A DNA stretch of 37,059 nucleotides from a bacterium. GTDB taxonomy: Bacteria > CLD3 > SB21. The notes beneath the pieces were generated by a model, which saw only the letters and a program-made list of their open reading frames with translations, was not told the origin of the DNA and did no database searches. Below, piece after piece: positions 23,648 through 25,927 of this stretch. How positions within the stretch are numbered: the stretch's first letter is position 1; each line of letters opens with the position of its first letter. Location: contig JABWCP010000030.1 in the NCBI GenBank assembly GCA_013360215.1, positions 1-37,059 on the forward strand, written 5' to 3'. Both the position numbers and the translations under genes were made by a program.

Positions 23648-24562
23648 TTATTGAATGTACTTTTTTGCAATTTGCACGGAACAACCCTGTATGGATGCAA
23701 TAAAATTAACTGTTGAAATTGAAAATGACCCAAAACACCCCGATACTCTGTCTCCGTATACGCTTGAATATTCCGATGGCTTGGAACCCATGATCTGATC
23801 TAAAAAACTCGAATATGTGGAGTCTGTCCCAAAACCTCGTATCTGGCCAAGCCGCCAGGAATAAAGAGAAAGATTTGAATCAAGCGTAACTACATTGCTG
23901 TATGATTCAGTATTGTCTGAATTATTATCAGACAGCAAAACAACACCGCTATCAATTTTCCCAAATGAAAACGCATACGAGAAGGGTACATCAACATCAT
24001 ACGAATTCTTATTTCGAACAAAATTCAACCTCGAATCAACATCTCGCGAATACTGTAAGTGGAATGCCCCTTCCAATGTTCCGTATTCTGTACGATTTAA
24101 ATAGAATTTATTTCCACAATATAGAGTATCATTATCGCCCGGAAACTCGATTACGGGATCGTTTGGAACTCTTGTGGTGCCCGTAATAATACGTCCATCG
24201 GTTAATTCTACTTGCAGAAAATAGCGATTCCCATTAATTATTTTAAGTTCCCTCTTTTTGTCAACAAATATTGTATATCCCCCTAGATACTCTCCTATAA
24301 ATGTAGTATCCAACTCCACGCTACCGGAATCACTCCAAATTTTAACTTTGGCATCGTCAATAGGAGTCTTCTTGTCTTGATTGACAATAAGGATACGGGG
24401 CCAGTAAACGCCAACTGTTGCTGGAAAAACAACATCAAGCTCTTTTATATATACTTTCGAAAGAACTCCTGTAACAATAACTCTGTCTTTCCGATTATCA
24501 TTTTCACATCCCCAAAAAATAGATAAAGCCAGTATTGATACTAAAATCATAATTGTTTTCAT
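23648..24562 (-). CDS. Lipoprotein, DUF4249-like in layout
   Basis: Starts at ATG 24562 (MKTIMILVSILALSIFWGCEND), giving 304 aa with lipobox FWGC (Cys at about 19). The body has beta-rich repeats such as VKIWSDSGSVELDTTFIGEYLGGYTIF and RYFLQVELTDGRIITGTTRVP, followed by a late hydrophobic segment SGCFGSFSISTVNFIAS. This order resembles DUF4249 lipoproteins of Bacteroidetes, often found beside TonB-dependent receptors, but I cannot confirm the match. No receptor gene is nearby. It is markedly AT-richer than the surrounding genes, as is the lipoprotein gene upstream, and the two form a pair ending in the terminator at 23550. Confidence 0.65.
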   Translation of the reverse strand: MKTIMILVSILALSIFWGCENDNRKDRVIVTGVLSKVYIKELDVVFPATVGVYWPRILIVNQDKKTPIDDAKVKIWSDSGSVELDTTFIGEYLGGYTIFVDKKRELKIINGNRYFLQVELTDGRIITGTTRVPNDPVIEFPGDNDTLYCGNKFYLNRTEYGTLEGAFHLQYSRDVDSRLNFVRNKNSYDVDVPFSYAFSFGKIDSGVVLLSDNNSDNTESYSNVVTLDSNLSLYSWRLGQIRGFGTDSTYSSFLDQIMGSKPSEYSSVYGDRVSGCFGSFSISTVNFIASIQGCSVQIAKKYIQ

Positions 24563-24569
24563 ATAAAAA

Positions 24570-24583
24570 TTCACGTGGTGTGG
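24570..24583. repeat. Left arm of a 14 bp inverted repeat
   Basis: TTCACGTGGTGTGG. Its exact reverse complement lies at 25914-25927. The two arms enclose the frame-disrupted lipoprotein gene with its start codon and ribosome site. The left arm sits immediately upstream of the next lipoprotein gene. Confidence 0.6.
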
Positions 24584-24594
24584 TTTTAAATTAA

Positions 24595-25885
24595 CTATTT
24601 AACAAACGTAATGCTATAATCACAAACCAGGTTCCCATAGGCATCCCGAACAGCAGGACAGCTAAATTCCGAAGACGAACCAAAACGAAAATTGAGGTTT
24701 GTTGGTGTTATTTGCAAGATATCGCCATTATAGAAAGAATCGTTTTTGCTTCCTTTATCATGAACATCCCAAATTTGATAGTGAAGATTCCATTGCGCAG
24801 GAAAAACCGATTTTGAGAGATCATGATAGTACTGTGCGCGAGCATATCTGCGTGTGTTGTTGACAGTAGTATATTTGTGATATGTTGTACCCGCAACCTT
24901 ATCATTCTCAATAAAAGACAGCCCCGTATTATTAAACGATGAAAGCAACTTTATTGGCGTAGAAAATATTTTTGTTTTGGTACCCTTCGGTTTTTCTGAA
25001 TCCGGTAAAGTATAGGTCGAGTACTTACTTTCCGAGTTTATTTGATTTGCATAGGCTTTGTCCTTAGGTGTACCTGAGACCATAAGTATTTCAATGTCAT
25101 CAGCGGATGAATCGTATTTTCTAAACAGTCTCATGGCTTTAATTTTAAATTCAAAAGCCGAACTATTGTTGCTTCCTTTATTTAAAACAGATGGATCATT
25201 TTCTTCAGCTTCAAGAGTTACCATGATAGCGTTATAAGGAAGAGACTCTAAAGTCAACTCGTTAAATTCCGTACGTGGGTCTAAACCGACCGCTTCAGAG
25301 GCCGTACTTGCCTGTGCAAGGTTTTCATTGTCATAGTTGGCGCCGTCATAGTCAAGGTTTTCTAAATGAACTACATCTACTGTGCCATCGGCCAATGTGA
25401 AAGGAACCTCCATTTCTTCCGCCGTCTCATCGTACACATAGTCAAAATCAGGATCAACGCCAACCCCTGGAGGTAACATAGCTTGCTTAGCAAGGCTCTC
25501 CTCTGTTAGTTCTGAACTGTTGTGATTAATTAACTCCAATTTTATGGAGTGCTTCTTACCATTTATCCATACATAATCCGGTATGTTTAATACTGCATCA
25601 TTGGATTTTTGCAAGGATTTTTTTAAAGAAGAAAACGGAACGGCGGTTTTACGAATTGATTGAAACAAAGAGAAATCGAACCAAGTTGGATTTGAACCCA
25701 ACGCCGAAGCAACTTCTTTTAGGTAAGGTGAAACTTGTTCTTCAGAATCGAAAGAAGGAATCTCCCCGAGTTGAAATCTATTATCGTTTTCGGGTTGATT
25801 GCAGGCTACAAAAGATAGAACTAACGCAAGGGCAACCCCCCCGCAAATTCCAAGCCAATTTTCTGGTTTTCAGAATCGAAATCAT
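24595..25885 (-). CDS. Frame-disrupted lipoprotein gene with a poly-G tract in its signal peptide
   Basis: An open frame runs from the stop at 24595 to beyond 25701, but its natural start is ATG 25885, one frame away, preceded by AGGGAG at 8 nt. Between them lies a run of seven G (minus strand, 25842-25836). With one G fewer the two frames join into a perfect lipoprotein start: MISILKTRKLAWNLRG, then VALALVLSFVAC with lipobox Cys28, followed by a 430-codon gene. As written, the ATG frame stops after 33 codons. The mature part (NQPENDNRFQLGEIP, then acidic and Asn-rich) has no family I recognise. The break could be a sequencing slip, a recent mutation or phase variation. Further support for a real gene is that the ~1100 nt after the tract is free of stops. 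Confidence 0.75.
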
Positions 25886-25913
25886 AAGTGTAACTCCCTA
25901 TTTATTTATTTTT

Positions 25914-25927
25914 CCACACCACGTGAA
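25914..25927. repeat. Right arm of a 14 bp inverted repeat
   Basis: CCACACCACGTGAA, exact reverse complement of 24570-24583, with the palindrome CACGTG inside. It sits between the candidate promoter at 25937-25966 and the ribosome site of the lipoprotein gene, so it would lie at the very start of the transcript. Confidence 0.6.

Follow-up and report, generated by a model that had tools for sequence, protein, structure and literature searches.

Most work on slipped-strand phase variation concerns host-associated bacteria. In Treponema pallidum, G tracts are reported to be linked to the expression of envelope proteins of the tpr/OMP group. Several of these tracts lie in promoters and act on transcription. 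In Campylobacter jejuni, the G tract lies within the frame of surface-related genes, a change of one base switches expression, and homologues without a tract exist (PMC6321876). A study of the Campylobacter phasome used seven G/C as its screening cut-off and states that switching has been demonstrated for tracts of at least eight (PMC6321876). In meningococci, homopolymers of at least eight are mostly variable in single colonies; slippage takes place at homopolymers and at short tandem units within or ahead of genes for surface determinants, and instability rises with tract length (PMC5084427).

Here we analyze a lipoprotein locus in the window, the whole 37,059-nt contig C30 (JABWCP010000030.1) of a 100% complete genome of 3.72 Mb, assembled into 56 contigs. 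The arrangement of this locus is most probably explained by slipped-strand phase variation of a surface lipoprotein, and both G-tract copies in the genome are assembled in what would be the OFF state. The locus resembles those of C. jejuni in having a tract inside the reading frame, where a change of one base would switch the frame, and in its tract-less homologues. However, a C. jejuni genome carries many G9-G10 tracts, against two candidates here, one of them only G7; switching has been measured there and is predicted from the sequence here, and the lineage and the protein family differ. As in Neisseria meningitidis, homopolymers and multi-base repeats occur side by side, whereas here the tract follows the n-region of a lipoprotein signal peptide and precedes its hydrophobic core, and the paralogues with arrays share a leader with unrelated repeat units. 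The tract lies inside the coding region, unlike the several promoter tracts of T. pallidum. Compared with the described systems, the G10 tract of the paralogue P0002 would be well inside the known switching range and the G7 tract of gene A at its edge.

A G tract separates the start codon of gene A from its open frame

Gene A lies on the minus strand, where a Shine-Dalgarno-like AGGGAG (25894..25899) is followed by an ATG (25883..25885) and a G7 tract, C-GGGGGGG-TT (25836..25842), as described in the initial annotation. Translation in the ATG frame gives MISILKTRKLAWNLRGGCPCVSSIFCSLQSTRKR and ends at a premature TAA (25781..25783) after 34 codons, one more than the 33 counted in that annotation. 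The rest of the gene (24595..25839), which begins with GVALALVLSFVAC, is open at an offset of one base from the ATG and runs for 414 codons from the G run to the stop codon at 24597-24595, in agreement with the earlier report of an open frame of more than 1200 nt. This shifted frame contains no stop, versus 21 and 46 in the other two frames, and none of 2000 shuffles was fully open. Its coding score of 0.030 log-odds per nt is near that of three intact paralogues (0.040 to 0.056). Because it holds no ATG, GTG or TTG between the last upstream stop and the G run, no alternative start rescues gene A, and an alternative start codon for the shifted frame was ruled out. The minimum length adopted for a tract was at least seven G/C within or just ahead of a frame, which gene A only just reaches.

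The claim that removing one G restores a lipoprotein signal also holds: at n = 6 the frame is continuous and starts with the hydrophobic signal GVALALVLSFVA followed by the lipobox Cys (25801..25839, minus strand; Cys codon 25803-25801). A change of one unit therefore decides between a 34-codon product at n = 7 and a continuous lipoprotein frame at n = 6 or 9. Read by eye, the shifted frame contains VALALVLSFVA-C, a hydrophobic core and then a Cys as in a lipoprotein. The Cys has the same position in the paralogue, and homologues of gene A likewise have a Cys after a hydrophobic core. The product is probably a lipoprotein, either surface-exposed or periplasmic. The gene A family is lineage-restricted. 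Searches of Pfam, NCBIfam and PDB gave sub-threshold chance matches only and placed gene A in no known domain family, and a protein search with P0001 for named relatives returned nothing. A protein search with the family alignment found one MAG only (JABWBZ010000008.1, ‘bacterium isolate MAG_43’), whose locus is the same as that of the relative G004. Structure prediction of lipoprotein A was unusable, with a mean pLDDT of 32.

Gene B, the second lipoprotein gene of an A-B pair, lies 3′ of gene A (23648..24562, minus strand), and the pair is found again elsewhere in the genome and in relatives. The window's gene B has a short local match, with 17 of 42 amino acids identical, to the B gene of a locus on contig C8, which is itself weakly DUF4249-like (E = 1.7e-5, below the cut-off).

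Simple repeats at the paralogues of gene A

A search of the genome with the read-through product of gene A revealed the paralogue P0002 at C8:107887 (C8:107.9k). Its signal region reads ATG AAT CAG CAT CGT AAA ATG T-GGGGGGGGGG-TA GCG CTT ATT CTT GGG TTG TTT TTC ACT TCC TGC, with a G10 tract at the codon homologous to the gene A tract, 12 codons before the lipobox Cys in both genes (VALALVLSFVAC / VALILGLFFTSC). The assembled length of 10 is the in-frame length of 9 plus one, which leaves P0002 out of frame by +1 like gene A, although the two proteins are only 24% identical. Behind the tract, the frame of P0002 is intact over 420 codons and its coding score is near those of the intact paralogues. 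Runs of at least seven G/C are rare, with 25 in the 3.72-Mb genome and a single one above eight; no G/C run longer than the G10 of P0002 was found. G7 runs are also present inside the housekeeping genes rho and uvrA. Given these 25 runs, two G runs of at least seven would fall by chance within the 60-nt signal regions of five paralogues with a probability of about 4e-7.

The genome encodes five lipoprotein A genes, each with a simple repeat: two G tracts and three arrays in leaders. The paralogues with arrays have no G tract and their frames are intact. The C1 paralogue carries 12 copies of AATCC at −308 from its ATG (L082 8132-8191 = G000:C1:228132-228191), the C19 paralogue nine copies of TCTAT at −361 (L111 13856-13900 = C19:38856-38900), and the C8:128k paralogue nine copies of ATCTAAGCC at −353 (L096 14383-14463 = C8 about 129.4 kb). 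The C1 and C19 arrays stand just 3′ of a promoter-like TTGACA/TTGACT-N17-TATAGT. A search with the leader motif identified a fourth copy of the leader in the same genome ahead of C7:95.7k, which encodes another exported protein, with seven copies of CAATTC (L142, C7 about 95.85 kb) at the same place as the arrays of the paralogues. Apart from these, the 837-kb sample described below contains three short-unit arrays only (the C4 octamer, a 13-bp array at a contig end and four copies of TTTG), and this gives only a rough estimate of array density elsewhere because the sample was placed partly on array-bearing loci. The 13-bp array, seven copies of TCTCGTCGAATGT, occupies the very end of contig C18 (C18:1-91, L110 1-91), where the assembly possibly broke on a longer array.

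Among the relatives searched there was no second genome of the same genus; six share the family and two more the class. Neither G tracts nor arrays were found in the gene A homologues checked, and none of five copies of the shared leader in relatives has an array. Each of the five lipoprotein A genes here is thus associated with a slippage-prone repeat, unlike the relatives' homologues that were checked. No conservation of the putative switch is seen outside this genome. The initial annotation had held that a fixed, non-repetitive sequence at this place in related genomes would speak against phase variation; such a sequence is indeed what the relatives carry, but the argument loses weight because tract-less homologues are normal in known phase-variable families (PMC6321876).

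Frame breaks elsewhere in the genome

Frame changes were scanned with a coding model in 800 kb of genome stretches plus the window (837 kb), a sample partly placed on known G7 sites and A loci and hence enriched for them. The scan is insensitive to short leaders and missed both G-tract genes, which came from direct search; its weak candidates were inspected in part. Within genes of this sample, A/T runs keep the frame in 93 of 93 cases for A8, 10 of 10 for A9, 62 of 63 for T8 and 6 of 6 for T9, and the same holds for 15 G/C runs of 7-8 located in other genes (seven G7, five C7 and three G8). The runs at which a frame changes are one G7, one T8 and one A10, together with a few of 6-7 A or T near gene junctions. 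These tallies indicate that the assembly is accurate at homopolymers and that breaks are concentrated at repeats in genes for exported proteins. Frameshift candidates at overlapping genes, such as the folK overlap in L078, were rejected as ordinary overlaps.

An outer-membrane-like gene (C13:24072-25000, plus strand, L019) has two breaks, one at a G7 and another at a T8, a state that looks more like decay than switching. A secreted caspase-like/FISUMP gene (C4 about 8826 to 6600, minus strand, L090) loses its frame at three copies of the octamer GACGCGAA, and a G8 tract lies 4 nt upstream of its ATG. Its homologue in G002 is open throughout, without the octamer repeat and the G8, and reads as if it had one octamer copy fewer. 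Finally, dnaX (L076 / G000:C1 about 440, minus strand) changes frame at an A10, as expected for programmed tau/gamma slippage; dnaX is known for programmed frameshifting.

Probable phase variation and its alternatives

Gain or loss of a single G by slipped-strand mispairing in the tract, which separates the n-region of the signal peptide from its hydrophobic core, would turn translation of gene A ON or OFF. With six (or nine) G, the ATG would be in frame with the signal, the lipobox and the mature protein, whereas with the assembled seven, translation would end after 34 codons and no lipoprotein would be made. P0002 appears to be built alike, with a G10 that would be in frame at n = 9, and the leader arrays of the other three paralogues could tune expression by their length. 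Tract-length variation in the living population, the reversibility of switching, the role of the arrays and the cellular location of the product are what we infer from this organization. Phase variation, as proposed in the initial annotation, is supported, though not proven, by the G10 paralogue, the arrays, the intact frames behind the tracts and the small number of homopolymer breaks elsewhere, and it is better supported than an assembly error or an inactivating mutation. Against the switching interpretation, G tracts are not abundant in the genome and the homologues of relatives lack the tract. A G7 is at the lower limit for efficient switching, so that the rate should be slow, and the in-frame G6 should be more stable still.

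Were the tracts fixed single-G insertions in G-rich codons, the two lipoprotein genes would be young pseudogenes. Null mutations commonly arise by slippage at a G6 codon run (CGG GGG GTT), the two homopolymer indels of the outer-membrane-like gene on C13 look like decay, and relatives lack the tracts. We nevertheless consider this unlikely, given that two paralogues are affected at the homologous codon, that a G10 is far longer than one insertion would produce, that no second lesion has accumulated in 414 or 420 codons, and that all other paralogues carry repeats too. Homopolymers are also the classic site of sequencing or assembly errors, and both lipoprotein genes are off by one base. An error is nonetheless very unlikely because almost all other long runs in genes of the 837-kb sample keep the frame, including A/T runs of 8-9 and G8; moreover, the break at the C4 octamer and the arrays are of another type, and a G10 at the signal site is abnormal whatever its exact length. 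A reversible switch is likelier than a sequencing slip since all five sister genes have a slippage-prone repeat, one of them a G10 at the homologous site.

Another explanation is programmed slippage of RNA polymerase or the ribosome at the G tract, which would yield some in-frame product from unchanged DNA. The change of frame of dnaX at an A10 in the same genome suggests that slippage-dependent expression probably occurs in this lineage, but the dnaX run consists of A, not G, and in bacteria the evidence for slippage is better for A/T runs than for G runs. Furthermore, the required shift within the signal peptide would cut expression and bring no obvious advantage, and homologues do not share the tract. 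We give this explanation hardly any credence.

Returning to phase variation, a more tentative extension, which we regard as possible but rather doubtful, is that the whole lipoprotein family consists of contingency loci of two architectures: G tracts in the signal peptide, in two paralogues bracketed by inverted repeats, and arrays in the leader. In this view, unrelated units of 5, 5, 6 and 9 bp would occupy one leader position, between promoter and gene, and array length would set the level of expression; that different units recur there would indicate that repeats were gained several times under selection. The mechanism itself is not new; to judge from the searches made, the lineage and the gene family appear to be undescribed, as do the array-bearing leader and the bracketing repeats. 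No simple-repeat contingency loci of uncultured bacteria turned up in the literature searched, although this is only weak evidence that none have been described. If true, a five-member family with repeats would suggest fluctuating selection on the surface, for instance by phages or predators. Automatic annotation would drop such genes or label them pseudogenes.

Inverted repeats and leader motifs

A perfect 14-nt inverted repeat, TTCACGTGGTGTGG, brackets gene A, with its 5′ arm 28-42 nt upstream of the ATG (25914..25927, minus strand) and its 3′ arm between genes A and B (24570..24583, minus strand). Of ten A loci, five have such a perfect inverted repeat, 11-17 nt long, around gene A, and both G-tract loci are among them; beside the window, these are L095, L004, L060 and L063. 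One arm precedes the ATG by 19-46 nt and the other follows the stop codon by 11-34 nt. When arms from different loci were compared as a control, complementarity extended over 6-11 nt and reached 11 in one of 45 comparisons. The sequence of the repeats varies by locus while complementarity is kept, which fits a long-range RNA helix or recombination (inversion) sites. The RNA helix is mildly favoured because gene A points towards gene B in all five bracketed loci.

The array-bearing loci have a different leader, whose ends are complementary (GGAAGAACAATATTACC ... GTAATA-CTTCC). Searches of Rfam with the leaders and the inverted repeats gave sub-threshold chance matches only. The leader motif GGAAG-N4-ATATTACC, with a complementary AGTAATA..CTTCC downstream, occurs ahead of genes for exported proteins in the bacterial family, with copies in L139, L142, L145, L146, L138, L140, L141, L143 and L144. 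Several copies of this leader also carry a strong AAGGAGGTGA.
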